This document shows, in pieces, positions 5,009 through 24,426 of a stretch of 49,219 nt of DNA (positions are counted from its first letter, which is position 1; each line of letters opens with the position of its first letter). A model generated the notes under the pieces. The model had not been told where the DNA came from. It ran no database searches and worked only from the letters and a program-made list of their open reading frames with translations. A program made the translations under genes and the position numbers. Origin of the DNA: Patescibacteria group bacterium (GTDB taxonomy: Bacteria; Patescibacteriota; Patescibacteriia; Buchananbacterales; SURF-54); assembly GCA_018818885.1 (NCBI GenBank), contig JAHIRB010000021.1, forward strand, positions 76,461 through 125,679, in the 5' to 3' direction.

Positions 5009-5383
5009 TCATATTAATTTAATATTACCTTGTGAAATCTTTTCCATTTTCCTAATTAACCTTTTACTGCTAATCAATCTTAGCTGAGGCCAAATAATTG
5101 TATAGCTTTTGCCATTTTCTATAAATGTATAAAAAAATCTTCCTTCTTTCTTTTTCGTGGTTAACGGTATGGCCCAAAGCATATTCTTATTAAATTTTCT
5201 GAATATTAATACAGGCCTTTCGAATTTTTCATTTTTACCATCTTCTTCAAAACCAATATTACAACCCAAAGATGCCCACCAGATTTCCCTTTCATAAAAA
5301 TAAAAACTGATGTCTTTATTAATAATAATCCTAATCTTTAATCTTGTCCATTCAACAATCTTAGTTAATTTTTCTTCAATCAT
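5009..5383 (-). CDS. MazF/PemK-like toxin, copy 1
   Basis: A 124-residue MazF/PemK-fold protein. REIWWASLGCNIGFEEDGK (about 32-50) holds the IWW..LG.N.G strand and loop of this family, followed by RPVLIFRKFN and AIPLTTK, the conserved core strands, and WPQLRLISSKRL near the end. MazF/PemK toxins are sequence-specific endoribonucleases. No protein antitoxin gene adjoins it: the next gene upstream on this strand starts 250 bp away and the gap has no usable frame. It differs from copy 2 (10943-11341) mainly by scattered substitutions and by ending eight residues earlier. A convergent sRNA lies immediately 3'. Transcription probably starts at the 5438-5466 promoter and passes a terminator-like hairpin before the ATG. 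Confidence 0.8.
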   Translation of the reverse strand: MIEEKLTKIVEWTRLKIRIIINKDISFYFYEREIWWASLGCNIGFEEDGKNEKFERPVLIFRKFNKNMLWAIPLTTKKKEGRFFYTFIENGKSYTIIWPQLRLISSKRLIRKMEKISQGNIKLI

Positions 5384-5635: not shown

Positions 5636-6199
5636 TTAAAAGTATAAACCTTTGTTTCTGATCTCTTTTCTTATTTCTTTATGATTGGGTACAAGCGTTG
5701 CCACTAAATTCCAAAACTTTGTTGAATGATTAAATTCTTTTAAATGGCAAAGCTCGTGAACAATAATATAATCTGCTGCATGCTTCGGCAAGAATAATAT
5801 TTTGTAATTAAAATTTAAATTTCGTTTCTTAGAACAACTCCCCCATCTGGTTTTTTGATTCTTTATGTTTATTTTGTTGTACTTAAATTGATAGGTAGAA
5901 TTGAAATGCTGTATGCGCTCTTGCACAAATTCTAAAGTTTTATTTTTGTATGTTAAATATTTTTGCTTGTCGTTTTTATTTATATCCACTCCAAACTTTT
6001 TAAAATGATCAATTTTAGCAAGCACCCAATTAGATTTTTCCATAATATATTTTTCTACTACCCTATCATTTAAACCCATTGGTTTAGTAACCACAAAACT
6101 GCCATCGCAATAAACAGCCAAACGCAACTTTTTAGCCTTCTTGCTGGTTTTTAATGTGTAGTTGATATCTCTACTATGTATTTTGATTTGTTTAGTCAT
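5636..6199 (-). CDS. YgjP-like zinc metallopeptidase
   Basis: A 187-residue protein of the YgjP/DUF45 (SprT-related M48-type) family. The zinc-binding motif HELCH is at residues 148-152 with a third ligand at H158 (EFNHS), and the family-specific RWGSCS lies at 118-123. Members are soluble metalloproteases of uncertain substrate, often encoded beside restriction or other defence genes. The ATG is 14 nt downstream of the stop of the Fic gene on the same strand, so the two are almost certainly cotranscribed from the promoter at 7129-7157. Length is slightly below the usual 220-240, missing part of the N-terminal beta region. Confidence 0.85.
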   Translation of the reverse strand: MTKQIKIHSRDINYTLKTSKKAKKLRLAVYCDGSFVVTKPMGLNDRVVEKYIMEKSNWVLAKIDHFKKFGVDINKNDKQKYLTYKNKTLEFVQERIQHFNSTYQFKYNKINIKNQKTRWGSCSKKRNLNFNYKILFLPKHAADYIIVHELCHLKEFNHSTKFWNLVATLVPNHKEIRKEIRNKGLYF

Positions 6200-6213: not shown

Positions 6214-7098
6214 TTAAAAACTTTTAGCAATTTTCCAGACACCTTTTTCGCGAAAGGCAGGAATGGTTTGCCGTTTGGCTTTATTTAAAAGAATTGATAT
6301 AGATATATTTTTCTTTTTGGCATATTCTGAAAGTTTAACAATTTCTTCTCCTTCCAAATAAGCGATCCTTTTATGGAAAGACTCCACTAGCGCCAATGAT
6401 AAAACCTTGTCCATGATGGCGGTTTTTTTCTTATCGCTATTTCTATATTCTTTAAACGAATTATAATAAACTACCTTTTCTTTATCACGAATAATAATCG
6501 GCGGGAATCCAAGCTGTATCAATTGGTAATTAATAAGCACACGTCCGATTCTTCCATTGCCATCGCAAAATGGATGAATATGTTCAAATTCCAGATGGAA
6601 CTTTGCGATTTTCTCAAGAAAATATTGTGTATGCCGACTTGAATATTCCAAAAGCATATTATCAATCATGGCCTCGATATGTTTAGGCGCGGGCGCAATG
6701 TATGTTCCTACACGAACATGTTCGTTTTGCTTACGAAATCTGCCGGCAATTTTTTCATCTATATTCGAAATTAGCATGTTGTGCAACAACAAAATTAAGT
6801 TCATATCAATATTTTGTGTACTTATTTTTTCTTTTATATGCTCAAACACACGGGCCAGATTTCTTGCTTCAAAAACTTCTCGCACTGACACGTTGCGAGA
6901 AACTTCCATGTCTAAAAGAATCTTTTCCGTTTCTAAGACAGTTAAAGTTGAATTCTCAATTGCATTGGAATTGTAAACAGATTCCGGCAATTCTGACTCA
7001 AACACAATATCTAAAAGCGATTCTTTGTTTTTCTTTAAAGAATCATATTCTTTTTTCAACAAATCAATTTTTCCCTTAATATCTTTTGATGTGGCCAT
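6214..7098 (-). CDS. Fic family protein 1
   Basis: A 294-residue Fic-domain protein. The catalytic motif HPFCDGNGRIGR is at residues 175-186 and an N-terminal inhibitory motif SNAIEN at 44-49 ([S/T]xxxE[G/N]), so this is a class II, self-inhibited Fic enzyme. Such proteins transfer AMP to hydroxyl side chains of target proteins. The C-terminus (about 250-294, LSEYAKKKNISISILLNKAK...) looks like a winged-helix DNA-binding unit, as is common in these proteins. It leads an operon with the YgjP protease. Its promoter is overlapped by repeated TTCACG/CGTGAA half-sites, fitting autoregulation. Confidence 0.9.
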   Translation of the reverse strand: MATSKDIKGKIDLLKKEYDSLKKNKESLLDIVFESELPESVYNSNAIENSTLTVLETEKILLDMEVSRNVSVREVFEARNLARVFEHIKEKISTQNIDMNLILLLHNMLISNIDEKIAGRFRKQNEHVRVGTYIAPAPKHIEAMIDNMLLEYSSRHTQYFLEKIAKFHLEFEHIHPFCDGNGRIGRVLINYQLIQLGFPPIIIRDKEKVVYYNSFKEYRNSDKKKTAIMDKVLSLALVESFHKRIAYLEGEEIVKLSEYAKKKNISISILLNKAKRQTIPAFREKGVWKIAKSF

Positions 7099-7368: not shown

Positions 7369-7824
7369 TTATTCAAATTGGCTTTTTTTTGTTGCCCAGT
7401 TATCAGGCCTGTCAGTGCTTGACATTGCTTTTTTAATTAGATTATCTGCTACATCTTTTCCCTCATGGAGATCTAGATATATCTGTACGTAACTGTATTC
7501 TTTTGGTTGCAGTACATGACTGAATGTTACTGAATTTTCAGAAGCAATGGTAATTATTATATTTCCTGGGTTTTCCAGTTTTAATTCTTTAAATTGCCTC
7601 CAGTCATATGATATTGTACTGGCATTATCCGATCTATCCGTCAAATATTCAAAACTTTTACACAATTGTTCGGCTGGATTTCTATTATTTTTTATATCTT
7701 CATTTAATTCTTTGTGTAGAAAATTATCTTCATCAATATAGGCAACACTAACCTTTCCAGACTCATCGCCTTCGACTTGAATAGTAACTATTATCTTTCC
7801 TTTAAGCTCAGCCGTTTCTTGCAC
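7369..7824 (-). CDS. Hypothetical protein, 151 residues
   Basis: Not recognised. The protein is soluble, acidic and beta-rich: KGKIIVTIQVEGD near the start and NIIITIASEN in the middle look like paired strands, and the C-terminal third (about 115-151) looks helical. The start used is GTG at 7824, the only start codon in frame before a run of non-start codons; a GGAGG lies only 2 nt before it, which is closer than usual, so the true start may differ. No gene partner is evident. It lies between repeat-bearing gaps and is transcribed towards the fic 1 promoter region. Confidence 0.6.
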   Translation of the reverse strand: MQETAELKGKIIVTIQVEGDESGKVSVAYIDEDNFLHKELNEDIKNNRNPAEQLCKSFEYLTDRSDNASTISYDWRQFKELKLENPGNIIITIASENSVTFSHVLQPKEYSYVQIYLDLHEGKDVADNLIKKAMSSTDRPDNWATKKSQFE

Positions 7825-7926
7825 GCCCTCCGGATTATCTAAATTTTTTTTAACATATTGGTTAATGTATAAAATTTAAAGCTTAGGATTATCTTAACAG
7901 TTGTATATGTTATGTCAATCACTCCA

Positions 7927-7960: not shown

Positions 7961-7989
7961 TTGACAACAAAAATATTAAAATATAAGAT
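7961..7989 (+). promoter_or_regulatory. Promoter of the serine leader/serC operon
   Basis: TTGACA (7961-7966), 17-nt spacer, TAAGAT (7984-7989). The -10 box ends only 9 nt before the leader ATG, so the message is nearly leaderless. Confidence 0.8.
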
Positions 7990-7998
7990 ATATATAAT

Positions 7999-8097
7999 AT
8001 GCAAGACAAAATTTACCTTACACCAATTAAAAGCTGGGCTTCAGTTTGTTCATCTAGCTCATCATCAGCCTATGGTGGAAGGTTTTTTATTGGATAG
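7999..8097 (+). CDS. Serine-codon leader peptide of the serC operon
   Basis: A 32-codon frame from ATG 7999 to TAG 8095-8097. It has eight Ser codons, six of them consecutive (codons 18-23, TCA/TCT/AGC) after a Cys. It starts within a few nucleotides of the predicted transcription start and is followed by mutually exclusive hairpins and then by an operon ending in phosphoserine aminotransferase. The codon content matching the downstream pathway is the hallmark of leader peptides in transcription attenuation (as for trp, his and leu). Scarce seryl-tRNA would stall the ribosome at 8041-8067 and favour read-through. Confidence 0.82.
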   Translation: MQDKIYLTPIKSWASVCSSSSSSAYGGRFFIG

Positions 8098-8160
8098 ATA
8101 ATATACATTAGTTAATATAGAAAACAGCCTTCTACCAATTAGTTAGGCTGTTTTCTTATT
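8074..8160 (+). promoter_or_regulatory. Antiterminator/terminator switch of the serine attenuator
   Basis: Terminator: GAAAACAGCC (8120-8129) pairs perfectly with GGCTGTTTTC (8146-8155), followed by TTATT. Antiterminator: GGTGGAAGG (8074-8082, inside the leader frame) pairs with CCTTCTACC (8128-8136, one G-U), and the following T run can pair with AAAA at 8121-8124, which would sequester the left terminator arm. A ribosome at the leader stop covers 8074-8082 and leaves the terminator free. Confidence 0.8.
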
Positions 8161-8204
8161 GATATAACCCTAGGAGGAGTACATTTACAACCAAGGAGGC
8201 TGTT

Positions 8205-8696
8205 ATGAAAGAAAACAAACTGGAACATATATGCATACCTATCGATATCAAAGCCTTACCCGATGAGCTAAAAAACAAAATTGAAGAAATAGTAAAAAGA
8301 GAAAAAAAATTTGTAGTATTGAGATATGGTTACCTGCTGGAAAAAGGAAAAATCAAAAAAAGAGAAATCACCATTCATATTGGATATAACACGAAAGCCA
8401 TACATACGGTAAAAGACTTTAGACCATTCCAAAGATTTCTCCCTTGCCATGGGCAGGGTGAAGAGGTCCTTAAGGTGGTTAAGGCAGTATGCTGGTATGG
8501 AGGCACTCATTGGAATATTATTGCTGCCATAGGCAAAGAATTTTATAAAACAGTTACTATCAATGCCATGACAGCAATAATCGAACATCATACTCAATAT
8601 ATCAAATTTCGAGTTCTGGTAAACCGAGGTCTTTCCTTTGATGTTGATAAGAAAGATTATAATTTGACCTTACTCTTACAGGAGGTGCTTGAATAA
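8205..8696 (+). CDS. Hypothetical protein in the serC operon
   Basis: A 163-residue soluble protein of unrecognised family. The start is set by AGGAGG 7 nt before ATG 8205. The N-terminus has a Lys/Glu-rich helix (about 19-40), then alternating strands (REITIHIGYNTK), a Cys/His-bearing stretch RFLPCHGQG (about 78-86) and CWYGGTHWN (about 97-105), which could form a metal or nucleotide site but matches no motif I know. The only neighbours in the operon are the serine attenuator upstream and serC 60 bp downstream, which suggests a link with serine supply; that is inference from context only. Confidence 0.7.
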   Translation: MKENKLEHICIPIDIKALPDELKNKIEEIVKREKKFVVLRYGYLLEKGKIKKREITIHIGYNTKAIHTVKDFRPFQRFLPCHGQGEEVLKVVKAVCWYGGTHWNIIAAIGKEFYKTVTINAMTAIIEHHTQYIKFRVLVNRGLSFDVDKKDYNLTLLLQEVLE

Positions 8697-8755
8697 AAAT
8701 CTAAAAAATTCATTAGCGTAACGCAAAGATTTGCTCTAACCAAGGAGGTAAAAAA

Positions 8756-9835
8756 ATGAAAGTGTGGAACTTTAATCCCGGCCCGGCAAAACTGCCCGAA
8801 CCAGTGCTGTTACAGATCCAGCAGGAATTACTGGATTTTCAAGGCACCGGTATTTCCATTCTGGAAACCAGCCATCGCTCAGTGGCCTTTGACAAGATTT
8901 TGTTTGGTGCAGAAGAAAATATCAGGCAGCTACTGAAATTTACGTCTGATGAATGCCAGATCATTTTTATGCAGGGCGGAGCCAACATGCAGTTTTTCAT
9001 GGCGCCATTGAATCTGGCTGTACCCGGCAAGCCGTTTGTCTATCATGATACCGGCTACTGGTCTCAAAAAGCCATAGCAGCTGCAAAAGAAATCGGGGAA
9101 GTTTGGCGTATCAAAACTTTCGAGAACGGCAGATTCGATCTAGACCCTGAATATGAGACCATGCAAAAATACCTTAAGGCCGCCTACGAGCACATAACAA
9201 GCAATGAAACTATTGATGGCAAGCGCTGGCGCTATCTGTTTGATGGCAGATTTACCCCGCCGATTGTAGTTGATATGTCGTCTGATTTCCTGTCTCGGTA
9301 TTTTCGAGTCCAGCAGTGCGGTCTAGTTTATGCCGGAGCACAAAAAAATCTCGGCATTGCCGGAGTGACAGTCGTGATTATCAGAAACGACATGCTAAAA
9401 CGTAATGGTTTGCATCCAGACAAATTTCATTGTTACCGCACACACCTTGGTTCAAGGTACAATACGCCGCCAGTGGTGGCTATCTATGTCCTGAAGCTTA
9501 TGACAGACTGGATACTAGCCCAGGGATTGGATAACATTCAGGATGCAAATTATCAAAAAGCTAAGAGGCTCTACGACTATATTGATGGGTCAGGGCTGTA
9601 TGAAAACAATGTCCATGAAGATGTCCGTTCTGTGATGAATGTGGTCTTCCTACTAAAGGAAGGGTATGAGGAGCTCGTCAATGACCTGCTGGAACATTTC
9701 GAAGACCATGGTCTGATAGGTCTAAAAGGTCATCGCAGTGTAGGAGGTTTTCGAGCCTCGCTTTACAACGCCATGCCTATTGACGGCGTACGCGCTTTGG
9801 TTGAAGCAATGAAAGAATTTGAAAGAACCCACTAA
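8756..9835 (+). CDS. serC: Phosphoserine aminotransferase
   Basis: A 359-residue class V (fold type I) PLP aminotransferase that converts 3-phosphohydroxypyruvate plus glutamate to 3-phosphoserine plus 2-oxoglutarate, the second step of serine synthesis. NFNPGPAKLPEPV at the N-terminus, ISILETSHRS (33-42) and the Schiff-base lysine K197 in GAQKNLG are SerC marks, as is GSRYNTPP in the C-terminal half. Length is normal (about 360). The start is fixed by AAGGAGG 8 nt upstream of the ATG. The gene is visibly richer in G+C than the flanking genes, a hint of transfer. It is the last gene of the attenuator-controlled operon; a terminator follows. serA and serB are not in the window. Confidence 0.93.
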   Translation: MKVWNFNPGPAKLPEPVLLQIQQELLDFQGTGISILETSHRSVAFDKILFGAEENIRQLLKFTSDECQIIFMQGGANMQFFMAPLNLAVPGKPFVYHDTGYWSQKAIAAAKEIGEVWRIKTFENGRFDLDPEYETMQKYLKAAYEHITSNETIDGKRWRYLFDGRFTPPIVVDMSSDFLSRYFRVQQCGLVYAGAQKNLGIAGVTVVIIRNDMLKRNGLHPDKFHCYRTHLGSRYNTPPVVAIYVLKLMTDWILAQGLDNIQDANYQKAKRLYDYIDGSGLYENNVHEDVRSVMNVVFLLKEGYEELVNDLLEHFEDHGLIGLKGHRSVGGFRASLYNAMPIDGVRALVEAMKEFERTH

Positions 9836-9841
9836 AAAACT

Positions 9842-9879
9842 AGCCGCATGGAACTCCAACCATGTGGCTTTATTCTTTT
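9842..9879 (+). terminator. Terminator of the serC operon
   Basis: AGCCGCATGG (9842-9851) / CCATGTGGCT (9860-9869), one G-U, followed by TTATTCTTTT. Confidence 0.85.
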
Positions 9880-9954
9880 AAACAAAAAACCCCTCATTAC
9901 TAAAGGAGTATTCTATATTGTCATTCCGTTTATTCTATTTGCCTGCCCTTCGAA

Positions 9955-10004
9955 GTCCCGCTTTAGCGGGACGTAGGAGGGTCATCCTGAACTCGATTCA
10001 GGAT
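9955..10004. repeat. Two adjacent perfect hairpin repeats
   Basis: GTCCCGCT/AGCGGGAC (9955-9962 / 9965-9972) and ATCCTGAA/TTCAGGAT (9984-9991 / 9997-10004). The second is the dispersed TCATCCTGAA...TTCAGGATCT type. They end the minus-strand exonuclease transcript from below and separate it from serC. Confidence 0.65.
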
Positions 10005-10016
10005 CTCGGTATTTCG

Positions 10017-10730
10017 TTAAATATTCAAATATTTTTTTAAAGTATAAACTAATTCTTCATTTTGGTTAAGCAAATCTTTTTTTGATTCATTCTCGTACAA
10101 CCATTTTAGATAGCTTGAGTTTTCTTTATTTACTTCTTCAAAAGTTTTTCCAGCATATTTCCCAAAAGCAAAAACTTTTAACAAAATTGGGGTCTGGGTT
10201 AGCTCTATTAATTTTTCAATAATTTCGTCGTCTGAATTTAAAGAAAACTTTTCTTTAGCAACATTTTTTAGATGTTCAAACAAAGGTTCTAAAACAGCAA
10301 CATCTCCAGAAGCATTATGTGCAACTCCATCAATTTCAAATCCCAAAAAGTATCTTAAGTATTGAATATTATATCTATCGCAATTAAGTAAATGCATTGA
10401 TACGCGCAAAGTGTCTATATGCTTATTTGTTTTAACTCCTTCGTTTTTTAATATGTTGATATCAAACCCCGCATTATGCGCAACTAAAATATTATCTTTT
10501 AGTATTTTGATTAAATTAGTTTGATGCTTGCTTCCTTTAAAAACAGGTTTGTCTTCTACCATCTTTTCTGTAATATGATGAGTAGCCATTGCAGTAAACA
10601 AAATTGGAACAGGGGGTTTAAAATACTCATCAACTACCTCGCCAGTAGTTAAGTTTTTATAAGCTAGCTGAACTAATCTGGCAGTGGGAGCTAAGCCAGT
10701 AGTTTCTGTATCTAATGCTATTATTTGCAT
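10017..10730 (-). CDS. DnaQ-like 3'-5' exonuclease (ExoX type)
   Basis: A 237-residue DEDDh exonuclease. Exo I is LDTETTGL (residues 6-13), Exo II is HNAGFDINIL (mid-protein) and Exo III is HNASGDVAVLEPL, all with the catalytic acids and His. The C-terminal part, FGKYAGKTFEEV...YLKWLYENE, matches the small DUF3820-type domain found at the end of exodeoxyribonuclease X-like proteins. Likely role: degradation of single-stranded DNA ends in repair or recombination rather than pol III proofreading, since it is not fused to or beside a polymerase. It is monocistronic and no Shine-Dalgarno site is visible. Confidence 0.87.
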   Translation of the reverse strand: MQIIALDTETTGLAPTARLVQLAYKNLTTGEVVDEYFKPPVPILFTAMATHHITEKMVEDKPVFKGSKHQTNLIKILKDNILVAHNAGFDINILKNEGVKTNKHIDTLRVSMHLLNCDRYNIQYLRYFLGFEIDGVAHNASGDVAVLEPLFEHLKNVAKEKFSLNSDDEIIEKLIELTQTPILLKVFAFGKYAGKTFEEVNKENSSYLKWLYENESKKDLLNQNEELVYTLKKYLNI

Positions 10731-10877: not shown

Positions 10878-10944
10878 AAATGGTTAGCACCTTTTCGGTG
10901 CAACTCCGAGACCCTGCAACGCAAGTTGCGGGGATCGTTTTTTT
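10878..10944 (+). ncRNA. Small structured RNA converging on the MazF-like toxin gene, copy 2
   Basis: Second copy of the sRNA at 4919-4988. The conserved core CAAATGGTTAGCA is followed by hairpin 1, GCACC/GGTGC (10887-10891 / 10897-10901), then an identical linker and an identical terminator hairpin with GCAA loop and T7 tail. Its terminator T-run overlaps the stop codon of toxin 2 (10943-10945), so toxin message reading past its stop would be antisense to the sRNA. Confidence 0.75.
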
Positions 10945-11341
10945 AAAGATTATTTATAATTTCTTTTTTAATCAATTCTATAGTAGCTTTTGAAATTTTT
11001 GTCATCTTTCTGATTAATCTCTTACTACTAATCAATCTTAGCTGAGGCCAAATTAAAGTATAGCTTTTATCATTCTCTACAAATGTATAAAAGAATTTTC
11101 CTTCTTTTTGTTTTGTAGTTAATGGGATAGCCCATAGCATATCCTTATTAAATTTTTTCCATATAAGTACTGGCCTTTCAAAATTTCTATTTTTACCATC
11201 TTCTTCAAAACCAATATTACAGCCTAGAGATGCCCACCAAATTTCCCTTTCATAAAAATAAAAACTGATATCTTTGTTAGAAATTATTCTTATTTTTAGT
11301 TTTGTCCATTCAATAATTCTAGTCAATTTATTTTCAATCAT
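10943..11341 (-). CDS. MazF/PemK-like toxin, copy 2
   Basis: A 132-residue paralogue of the 5009-5383 protein, with the same REIWWASLGCNIG, RPVLIWKKFN, AIPLTTK and WPQLRLISSKRL blocks; most substitutions are conservative and the tail is eight residues longer (ending KKEIINNL). Expected activity is RNA cleavage by analogy with MazF/PemK. As in copy 1 there is no adjacent antitoxin protein frame, a convergent sRNA overlaps the 3' end, and a terminator-like hairpin (11361-11385) stands between the promoter region and the ATG. An extended -10 (TGCTATACT) near 11404-11412 could drive it. Retention of both partners in two copies argues that they function together. Confidence 0.8.
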   Translation of the reverse strand: MIENKLTRIIEWTKLKIRIISNKDISFYFYEREIWWASLGCNIGFEEDGKNRNFERPVLIWKKFNKDMLWAIPLTTKQKEGKFFYTFVENDKSYTLIWPQLRLISSKRLIRKMTKISKATIELIKKEIINNL

Positions 11342-21409: not shown

Positions 21410-22480
21410 TTAAATCAACATATACCCCGAAGCCGGACCCTTGCCTACTTGCTTGATCATTCCTAATTTTTTTAGTTTTTGCAGGTAAGACTGGGCGGTT
21501 CTTTTTGGGCAATGTAAAATATCTATAACATCCTGGACTGTAATTTTTCCAACCTGATCAAGAAAATCTAAAATCTGCATTTGATTTTTATCCAAATAAA
21601 CCTTGGCTTGAATTTTTTCATCAACTTTTTTCATCGACAAAGAGGCAATCTTATCTTTTACCTCATCAATTTCCTGCTTAAATCCTTTGACAAAATATTC
21701 CAGCCAAGAAGTAAAATCAGTTTGGCGCTCTTCGTAGTTTTTGCCAATGTTAATAGCCGCGTAATACTTTGGCCGATCCTGATTGTAATAGTCTTCCAAG
21801 GCAAAAAGCCGCCTGAAATCATACCCTCTCTCATACAAAATAAGGGTTGCCAGAGCGCGCGCTGTTCGGCCATTGCCATCGGTAAACGGATGAATGGCAG
21901 CCAGTTCTTGATGAACGATGCCGGCAACAATAATAGGATGAATTTCTTTTTTTGAGCTTTGCTTTATCCATTCCACCAAGTCTTTCATCAAACCAGCGAC
22001 TTTTTTTGCTGCTGGGCCGGTATAGACTGTTTCTTGCGATTTGCCAAACCGGCGGCTGACAACATAAATCGGCTCCCGGCGGTAATGCCCGGACTGTTCA
22101 TCATTTAAGGTATCGGCTGTGGCCAGCTGATGTATTTTTAAAACTACTTTTTCAGTTACTTGTTGTTTTTTTTCAACTACCTGCTCGATATACTTTAAAG
22201 CTTTTAAGTAATTCTCAACTTCAAAAATATCACGCGCCGGCGCATCAATTTTTTTGTTCGCCAGCAAGTCTTCAACCTGACGAGCGTTAAGCATGTTTCC
22301 CTCAATAGCGGTAGAACTGTGAGTCATGCGAATCATTGCCTGCCGGCGCAACCTTAACTCGTGCTTGGGAAGCAATTTAGCGCGGTTGATAACAGACTTG
22401 GCTTCGGCGATGGCAGTCAGCCAGTTTACAATCTTGTTGCTTATTTTATATTGGGGTGTAAACATACTTATATTATACAT
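21410..22480 (-). CDS. Fic family protein 2
   Basis: A 356-residue class II Fic protein. The inhibitory motif SSTAIEGN is near residue 56, the catalytic loop HPFTDGNGRTAR at 197-208, and a winged-helix domain at the C-terminus (about 300-350, MQILDFLDQVGKITVQDVIDIL...) matches the DNA-binding tail of this subgroup. Expected activity is AMP transfer to protein hydroxyls. Three copies of ATCGCGCA just upstream of the start look like an operator for the winged helix. It ends 33 bp before the SET gene and may be cotranscribed with it. Confidence 0.9.
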   Translation of the reverse strand: MYNISMFTPQYKISNKIVNWLTAIAEAKSVINRAKLLPKHELRLRRQAMIRMTHSSTAIEGNMLNARQVEDLLANKKIDAPARDIFEVENYLKALKYIEQVVEKKQQVTEKVVLKIHQLATADTLNDEQSGHYRREPIYVVSRRFGKSQETVYTGPAAKKVAGLMKDLVEWIKQSSKKEIHPIIVAGIVHQELAAIHPFTDGNGRTARALATLILYERGYDFRRLFALEDYYNQDRPKYYAAINIGKNYEERQTDFTSWLEYFVKGFKQEIDEVKDKIASLSMKKVDEKIQAKVYLDKNQMQILDFLDQVGKITVQDVIDILHCPKRTAQSYLQKLKKLGMIKQVGKGPASGYMLI

Positions 22481-23244: not shown

Positions 23245-24426
23245 CTATTTTGATTTAGCGCGTGCTGCGCGGAAAGCATCGTCAAAAATTTCATAATAAT
23301 CGGCATAAATATATTTTTGAGCATATTGCGCATCACCAAGAGGCTCAAGAATCTTTAAAGCCTTAAGACGTTCGATTACTCTATAAGCTCCGGGAGCGGT
23401 AAATTTGGTCCATCCCATTATTTCGCCCACTCCGATGATAGGCTGGCTGAACAACTTACGCACAATCTCCAGAGTCGAAGCGGCTGATTTTTTACCAAGC
23501 TTTTGCATTTTAGCGAAATCCCGGTCGCGCAAAGCTGTTATTTGCGTGCAGGTTTCAATACCAGAATCTGCAATTTCACAAACACCTTCAAGAAAAAAAT
23601 CCAGCCAACCATCAACATCCGCCTCTTCGTCGTGATAATTCTGTAATTTTTGATAATATACTTTTTGGTATTTTTTGAAATAACTAGAAAGGTAAAGTAC
23701 GGGTAATTCCAAAAGTTTTTTATGATAAATAAACATGGTTATGAGCATTCGCCCGGTGCGTCCGTTACCATCGGTAAAAGGATGGATAGTTTCAAATTGC
23801 GCGTGTATAAGGCCTGCCTTTATTAAAGAAGGGTAATTATCCCCGGCATGGATAAATTTTTCCAAATCAACCAAAGATTTCTGCATATCATCTACTGCAG
23901 GCGGAACAAAAGATGCATCCGTCGGGGTTTTACCGCCGATCCAATTTTGTGAATGTCTAAATTCCCCAGGACAAGAATGCTGTGTGCATCTTGCACCAGT
24001 CATTAGTTTTTCATGAAGCTCTCTTATAAACCTTAAAGAAATAGGAAACTCTTTGGTTCTTTCTATACCATAATTAGCAGCTTTGATATAATGTTCGATG
24101 TCATCTACATCCACATTTTTACGATCCTTCTTTTCCGTAACCGGAGCAGCGACAGCATCCTGTAAAGTGGCTTTGGTTCCTTCTATCTGGCTTGAGTAGG
24201 TGGCATCTTTTACGACAAACATCGAAATAAAAAAATCTTTGTCCGGCAAAAGACGGGTGATGCCGTCGAGTTTTCCCACCAAGCGGATGGCTTCTTCGTG
24301 TTTTTTGTTTAATTTTAGGCTGATTGGAACCCCCCCCAGCGGTGGGAAGCCAAAAGGCGTAAAAGCCTTAAAACCTTCTTTTTGCTGAATATATCGGCCG
24401 ATTTTAGGTTTGTTTATATTGCTCAT
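23245..24426 (-). CDS. Fic family protein 3
   Basis: A 393-residue class II Fic protein of the Fic_N/Fic/winged-helix type. The inhibitory motif SSQIEG is at 78-83, the catalytic loop HPFTDGNGRTGR at 215-226, and a winged-helix segment at about 305-365 (ALEIVRKLF-like SQPIIGVGEIMGW...AYRVIERL). PLGGVPISLKLN near the N-terminus is typical of the Fic/DOC N domain. Expected activity is AMPylation. The promoter is surrounded by GATATAAAC half-sites, again fitting autoregulation. It is on the same strand as, and about 100 bp upstream of, the two-helix membrane gene. Confidence 0.92.
   Translation of the reverse strand: MSNINKPKIGRYIQQKEGFKAFTPFGFPPLGGVPISLKLNKKHEEAIRLVGKLDGITRLLPDKDFFISMFVVKDATYSSQIEGTKATLQDAVAAPVTEKKDRKNVDVDDIEHYIKAANYGIERTKEFPISLRFIRELHEKLMTGARCTQHSCPGEFRHSQNWIGGKTPTDASFVPPAVDDMQKSLVDLEKFIHAGDNYPSLIKAGLIHAQFETIHPFTDGNGRTGRMLITMFIYHKKLLELPVLYLSSYFKKYQKVYYQKLQNYHDEEADVDGWLDFFLEGVCEIADSGIETCTQITALRDRDFAKMQKLGKKSAASTLEIVRKLFSQPIIGVGEIMGWTKFTAPGAYRVIERLKALKILEPLGDAQYAQKYIYADYYEIFDDAFRAARAKSK

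Follow-up and report, generated by a model that had tools for sequence, protein, structure and literature searches.

A candidate serine-sensing transcription attenuator with a predicted leaderless peptide frame upstream of serC in a Parcubacteria genome

A survey from 2010 gave leader-peptide systems as known solely in Proteobacteria and Actinobacteria, with histidine leaders in Firmicutes added (PMC2965389). The actinobacterial attenuators comprise those of trp, ilvB, trpS and leuS (PMC1262725) as well as that of ilvB1 in Mycobacterium tuberculosis (PMC13236596), while serine shortage is sensed via serine codons during translation of sinR in Bacillus subtilis (PMC3862929). Here, a 49 kb stretch of DNA (the window) from the genome G000 was analysed, with the focus on positions 7961-8160, upstream of the phosphoserine/phosphohydroxythreonine transaminase gene serC. 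These positions are read as a ribosome-mediated (classical) transcription attenuator that would sense charged tRNA-Ser, and a probability of roughly 0.87 is assigned to this reading on the basis of sequence comparison and computed folds. The element comprises the following parts, in which coordinates are those of the window and lengths are given in nucleotides (nt) or base pairs (bp):

7961-7989, forward strand: promoter (TTGACA at 7961-7966, 17-nt spacer, TAAGAT at 7984-7989; 10 of 12 matches in a promoter scan)
7999-8097, forward strand: leader peptide open reading frame (ORF) of 32 codons, its ATG 9 nt past the -10 box and without a Shine-Dalgarno sequence
8016-8024, forward strand: segment 1, CCTTACACC, codons 6-9, pairing with segment 2
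8050-8067, forward strand: six control codons, Ser18-23 (TCA TCT AGC TCA TCA TCA)
8074-8084, forward strand: segment 2, GGTGGAAGGTT, codons 26-29, the 5' arm of the antiterminator
8126-8136, forward strand: segment 3, AGCCTTCTACC, common to antiterminator and terminator
8120-8160, forward strand: intrinsic terminator, a 10-bp hairpin (8120-8155) with T-rich 3' arm and tail

An original prediction, made from the letters of this stretch, had described a nearly leaderless 32-codon ORF with six consecutive Ser codons, an antiterminator (8074-8082 with 8128-8136) and a competing 10-bp terminator (8120-8155), and each of these parts was recovered; its statement that all the parts of classical attenuation were in place was incomplete, however, as segment 1 was missing from the scheme. 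The ORF translates as MQDKIYLTPIKSWASVCSSSSSSAYGGRFFIG, with the stop codon at 8095-8097. Since its ATG lies 9 nt past the -10 box and the usual start would fall at about 7996, the transcript is predicted to be leaderless or nearly so. In the antiterminator, GGTGGAAGG (8074-8082; codons 26-28, GGT GGA AGG) is complementary to CCTTCTACC (8128-8136) through eight Watson-Crick pairs and one G-U pair, and in the terminator helix GAAAACAGCC (8120-8129) is complementary to GGCTGTTTTC (8146-8155). The antiterminator pairing shares bases with the hairpin's 5' arm, and the two structures are mutually exclusive. Segment 1 matches segment 2 (8074-8082) at 8 of 9 pairs (duplex -13.8 kcal), and the predicted helices 1:2, 2:3 and 3:4 together make up the full logic of trp-type attenuators. 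Taken in isolation, the antiterminator has an energy of -16.0 kcal/mol and the terminator one of -16.0 to -18.1 kcal/mol; the latter had been missed by a simple consensus scan because its loop exceeds 8 nt. The whole leader folds 3.85 standard deviations below dinucleotide shuffles (z -3.85), with none of the 200 shuffles equally stable.

The Ser run alone is not decisive, because two other six-frame runs of at least six Ser occur in the window (first-order Markov expectation, 0.03 per window). Such chance runs in other frames could be taken to favour a constitutive terminator next to an unrelated small ORF, or to a gene for a secreted or membrane peptide, in which the Ser codons stand together by accident. 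This is very improbable when set against about 24 leaders with the same anatomy, matching codons and partner-matched segments, in which GG[R/S]F is kept mainly as pairing codons rather than as peptide. What counts for an attenuator is the conjunction of parts, which, as far as can be read from the sequences, is seen again, with the same geometry, in the three further Ser leaders and in some 20 leaders with Leu, Ile or Thr codons.

In the proposed mechanism, RNA polymerase would start at about 7996, and a ribosome would load on the 5'-terminal AUG and trail the polymerase. With ample Ser-tRNA, the ribosome would reach the stop codon and cover most of segment 2 (8074-8084), upon which segments 3 and 4 would pair into the terminator (8120-8155) and the transcript would end near 8160. 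With scarce Ser-tRNA, a stall where the Ser run begins would block 1:2 pairing and free segment 2, which would capture segment 3 before the terminator is complete and thereby permit read-through into an orphan ORF (orf163) and serC. In the case of no ribosome, 1:2 and 3:4 would both form and transcription would end.

A comparison of the folds of the two states, as had been advised along with the original prediction, gave an antiterminator or a terminator depending on the position of the ribosome. The model leaves out all RNA behind the leading edge of the ribosome, whose footprint is taken to extend 13 nt beyond the first base of the A site. When the ribosome is stalled at Ser18 or Ser19, which leaves the RNA free from 8064 or 8067 respectively, the antiterminator probability is 0.997 or 0.994 at length 8156; for RNA free from 8076 or later, the terminator probability is 0.999, and with the ribosome at the stop codon that of the antiterminator is 0.001 at lengths 8137-8142. 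A mask model, which allowed pairing across the stalled ribosome, returned the terminator for the full-length RNA whenever the stall lay within S18-S23 and was set aside, the ahead-of-ribosome model being more realistic.

Related leaders were searched for by DNA search of the own genome, by a covariance model of the core over the order and by a second model over other families of the class, and at least 24 leaders were tabulated in all within the class Parcubacteria. The own-genome search yielded a second Ser leader (MQQKKYLSPKLSWNTVCSSSSSSSACGERFTFA) at C37, with 71% identity across the 205 nt that span promoter to terminator; the DNA conserved with this paralogue begins at 7961, i.e. it includes the promoter. 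Two further Ser leaders, each immediately upstream of a serA-like gene, come from members of two other genera, namely G001 (MNLKKYLSAQSSWSIICSSSCSSSAFGGRFFSA), which belongs to the same family (Parcubacteria SURF_54), and G004 (MKFNLLMKSCQSSSLSSGLSNSGGRLVFT), which was found by the covariance model search of the order. Ser runs occupy the equivalent position in all three. The Ser run and the pairing, whose retention in relatives had been named beforehand as a test, are thus seen before the serA-like genes of G001 and G004 and in the second own-genome copy; the earlier placing of the window in a genome of the candidate phyla radiation (CPR) type also agrees with G001 being a Parcubacteria metagenome-assembled genome (QZIX01000015). 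Near-identical promoter placement precedes nearly all related leaders, and other leaders have terminator counterparts with U-tracts. Apart from Ser, the core model gave runs of Leu (e.g. MKPFSLKLNQNLKALLLLLLPFGGRFTYV, G000) and Ile (MIKITSTIIIEIIISQPLGGSLLRV, G000) as well as one of Thr/Ile (G003).

These leaders also bear on the possibility that the ORF senses serine plus Trp and Cys, both made from serine, through the conserved codons that lead into the Ser run (S-W-x-x-V/I-C-S6). Three of the four Ser leaders share both residues, that of G004 keeps a Cys, and when the ribosome is stalled at Trp13 in the fold model, segment 1 is covered and the antiterminator probability is 0.977 at length 8156. 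Nevertheless, the three leaders bearing both residues are close homologues whose likeness may reflect descent, the divergent G004 leader is without Trp, and there is no run of Cys or Trp, so that such broader sensing is considered unlikely.

With regard to the reach of the tRNA-Ser attenuator and its kin, a 379-genome sample of the phylum gave matches solely within the same class. In a first class-wide pattern search, the matches outside G000, G001, G003 and G013 were not recovered by the covariance model, and in a contig scan of 15 records the flanks were without a comparable leader except in G001 and G013. Thirty PGDH-like (phosphoglycerate dehydrogenase-like) loci sampled from the class included one with a Ser leader (G001), the leader of G004 having come from the model search. 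A DNA match in G041 (L005) proved to be AT-rich coding sequence and was rejected as a chance match.

Partner preference in the pairing was assessed with an own-versus-swapped duplex test, which permits shifted and bulged partners and was chosen in place of column covariation. Across the 24 leaders, segments 1:2 pair at a mean of -13.1 kcal with their own partners versus -10.9 with swapped ones, and segments 2:3 at -16.5 versus -14.4 kcal, with 0 of 50,000 permutations as good in either case. Earlier swap runs gave 0/20,000 for 1:2 (23-24 leaders) and 3/20,000 for 2:3, and drawing one leader per genome gave at most 1/20,000 (1:2) and 7/20,000 (2:3); as the leaders are related, sequence changes among them are not independent. 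When segment 1 was shuffled, the 1:2 pairing fell to -6.9. In the founding set, the segment 2 core GGTGRAAGGTT hardly varies; in several leaders its AGG/AGA/AGT codon changes along with the partner segments, and G007 alters all three segments together (segment 1 CTTTCCGC, segment 2 GGCGGAAGG, segment 3 CTTCCGCC; judged by eye). The geometry is also largely uniform: in 19 of the 24 leaders, exactly 24 nt lie between the start of segment 2 and the downstream end of the stop codon, and a terminating ribosome would therefore sit over most of segment 2, while in 20 of 23 the ATG follows the -10 box at a distance of 5-11 nt, from which leaderless RNAs are predicted. In G013 and in the Ile leader of G003, the ORF stops just before segment 2, yet segment 2 is conserved, which argues that it acts as RNA and that the pairing is selected.

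The interval between segments 1 and 2 is of further use in judging whether a riboswitch or T-box binds a ligand or tRNA directly, with the ORF being incidental. T-boxes control some amino acid operons in other bacteria, and such a switch would dispense with the ribosome; here, however, the interval contains only the variable codon run, without a conserved aptamer. Rfam gave no match at the gathering threshold, the best weak match being Thr_leader (23.0 bits versus a cut-off of 55); Leu_leader had no match in the window, and no T-box was matched there at the gathering threshold or up to E = 10. Direct binding of this kind is accordingly regarded as highly improbable.

Support for control by a translated leader also comes from the downstream genes, as the control codons fit the downstream pathway in 11 of the 11 leaders with a recognisable target gene. 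The Ser leaders of this set precede serC, serA and serA; six Leu leaders precede leuA (G000, G004, G010, G043, G044, G060) and two Ile leaders precede cimA (G004, G010). Orphan or unclassified ORFs lie downstream of the remaining leaders.

Among the leaders of other specificity, that of G003:C7 (L042, about 5640-5725) combines Thr with Ile codons (MELNLSVIITTIKTKTTHLVGGRLIVA), shares the core and has an orphan ORF downstream; it is possibly a Thr/Ile attenuator. Tandem arrangements also occur: in G000 (L040, G000:C1:24000-38000, about 8697-10150), an Ile leader precedes an orphan ORF, and a Leu leader follows about 1.2 kb beyond it, ahead of a leuA-like gene. In G003 and G009, comparable Ile/Leu or Thr/Ile stacks lie downstream of response regulator genes and ndk.

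Downstream of the serC leader, the window contains the following features:

8205-8696, forward strand: orf163, an orphan ORF with a good Shine-Dalgarno sequence (AAGGAGG, 8193-8199)
8756-9835, forward strand: serC, phosphoserine/phosphohydroxythreonine transaminase (NF003764, 398 bits versus a cut-off of 253; Aminotran_5)
9842-9879, forward strand: terminator-like site ending the presumed operon (10 pairs, T-rich tail)

The claim that the operon encodes serC holds in that serC lies downstream in the presumed operon, although it is the second gene and orf163 the first. For orf163, searches of Pfam and NCBIfam gave no family above cut-off, no homologue was found in nine relatives of the order, and a single-sequence fold was unreliable (predicted local distance difference test, pLDDT, 37.5). 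Within the class, serC was found in 2 of 380 genomes, one of the two being a weak match. It could be asked whether the attenuator works mainly on orf163, with serC not co-transcribed, given that orf163 is the first gene and that small orphan ORFs follow many related leaders. Against this, the gap between orf163 and serC is 59 nt with no terminator detected between them, serC has its own Shine-Dalgarno sequence, and the first gene in G001 and G004 is serA-like; a target limited to orf163 is thus quite improbable.

Small orphan proteins (about 90-160 aa, without a Pfam family) follow or adjoin many leaders, and a few of them are interrelated (G010/G004, G009/G007). Orphan ORF loci near leaders are:

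Window, 8205-8696: orf163
L039, 3580-3981: orphan ORF
L045, 487-891: orphan ORF
L047, 8922-9317: orphan ORF
L049, 2380-2796: orphan ORF
L043, 2404-3055: orphan ORF
L046, 3345-3993: orphan ORF

Control by the leaders suggests a role of these proteins in amino acid metabolism. That they are free-standing LeuA allosteric domains was considered and found unsupported (hhalign probability at most 2.8%).

Several observations weigh against a serine-responsive attenuator at serC. In the genome of the window, PGDH at 1e-60 was not found (weaker 2-hydroxyacid dehydrogenase matches are present), nor was serB above cut-off; a complete serine pathway is therefore not apparent, and serC may have a different role. 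The first gene, orf163, is an orphan. The Ser leaders number just four and come from a single order, and the C37 copy (L039 3309-4613, G000:C37) occupies the rpsP-khpA site, but an unknown 133-aa ORF replaces serA there. The 1:2 pairing of G004 is weak (-7.1 kcal), and column-wise covariation of the antiterminator helix was not above shuffles, the helix being mostly invariant. The serA-like (PGDH), cimA and some leuA matches fall below the NCBI curated cut-offs, the best models still being those enzymes. Finally, equilibrium at full length (8165) favours the terminator in most states, and the switch must therefore be kinetic, i.e. decided co-transcriptionally as in known attenuators. With these points taken into account, the attenuator reading of the original prediction is supported by the sequence evidence.

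As for its origin, the Ser leader of G001 and G004 sits between rpsP and serA-khpA, and the C37 site looks as if serA had been lost and the leader kept. A copy of a serA-type leader may plausibly have come to control serC. More broadly, Parcubacteria may possess a modular leaderless cassette (promoter, exchangeable-codon ORF, fixed GGTGGAAGGTT core and terminator) that was duplicated and redirected to genes of the Ser, Leu, Ile and perhaps Thr pathways, with a copy related to the rpsP-khpA one fronting serC here; the balance for and against this scheme is about even.

Elsewhere in the window, a mirror-image promoter (TTGACA, 16 nt, TAAGAT; 7891-7918, reverse strand) lies just upstream of the serC leader and faces a divergent ORF at 7369-7824. 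Judged by eye from translations, three proteins carry Fic-type motifs (HPFxDGNGR; 6214-7098, 21410-22480 and 23245-24426, all on the reverse strand), and two near-identical small proteins from a local duplication (5009-5383 and 10943-11341, reverse strand) have the look of MazF/PemK-type toxins.

The leaders would place full attenuators in Parcubacteria, a small-genome group in which finely tuned biosynthesis would not be expected. Serine would be added to the sensed amino acids, and a swap of a few codons is suggested to re-aim one switch. Furthermore, such leaders provide a direct clue, obtainable from sequence only, to the amino acids that uncultured cells produce themselves and may come to lack, and point to a likely link with amino acids for orf163 and other orphan genes.

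In agreement with the original view that Ser leaders lie outside the well-known set, a literature search, which left most subscription papers out of its reach, gave no serine-specific leader and no Parcubacterial attenuator. Canestrari et al. (2020, cited in PMC13236596) reportedly described leaderless polycysteine ORFs in mycobacteria; these resemble the serC leader, itself predicted to be leaderless, in being short ORFs with a single-amino-acid run before a biosynthetic operon, and differ in having Cys in place of Ser. Conserved terminators were not found at the mycobacterial polycysteine ORFs (PMC1262725). The actinobacterial attenuators share the leader ORF, antiterminator and terminator, with a ribosome at the stop codon masking the antiterminator (PMC1262725, PMC13236596), but sense Trp, Leu, Ile/Val and Cys, not Ser, and no common sequence core was seen. 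The sinR effect differs in acting within a coding gene, and its abstract describes no leader peptide switch (PMC3862929). The trp, his, leu, thr and ilv attenuators of Proteobacteria are alike in their pathway control codons, their 1:2, 2:3 and 3:4 helices and a terminator before the first gene; unlike them, the serC leader has a putative serine specificity, a predicted 5'-terminal AUG without Shine-Dalgarno sequence, an antiterminator arm that lies within the coding frame at a constant distance of 24 nt from the stop, and no Rfam match. Rfam does contain a serC leader of alphaproteobacteria, to which nothing in the window matched. The proposed mechanism is classical attenuation, while serine, the lineage, the predicted leaderless ORF and one core across several amino acids set it apart.
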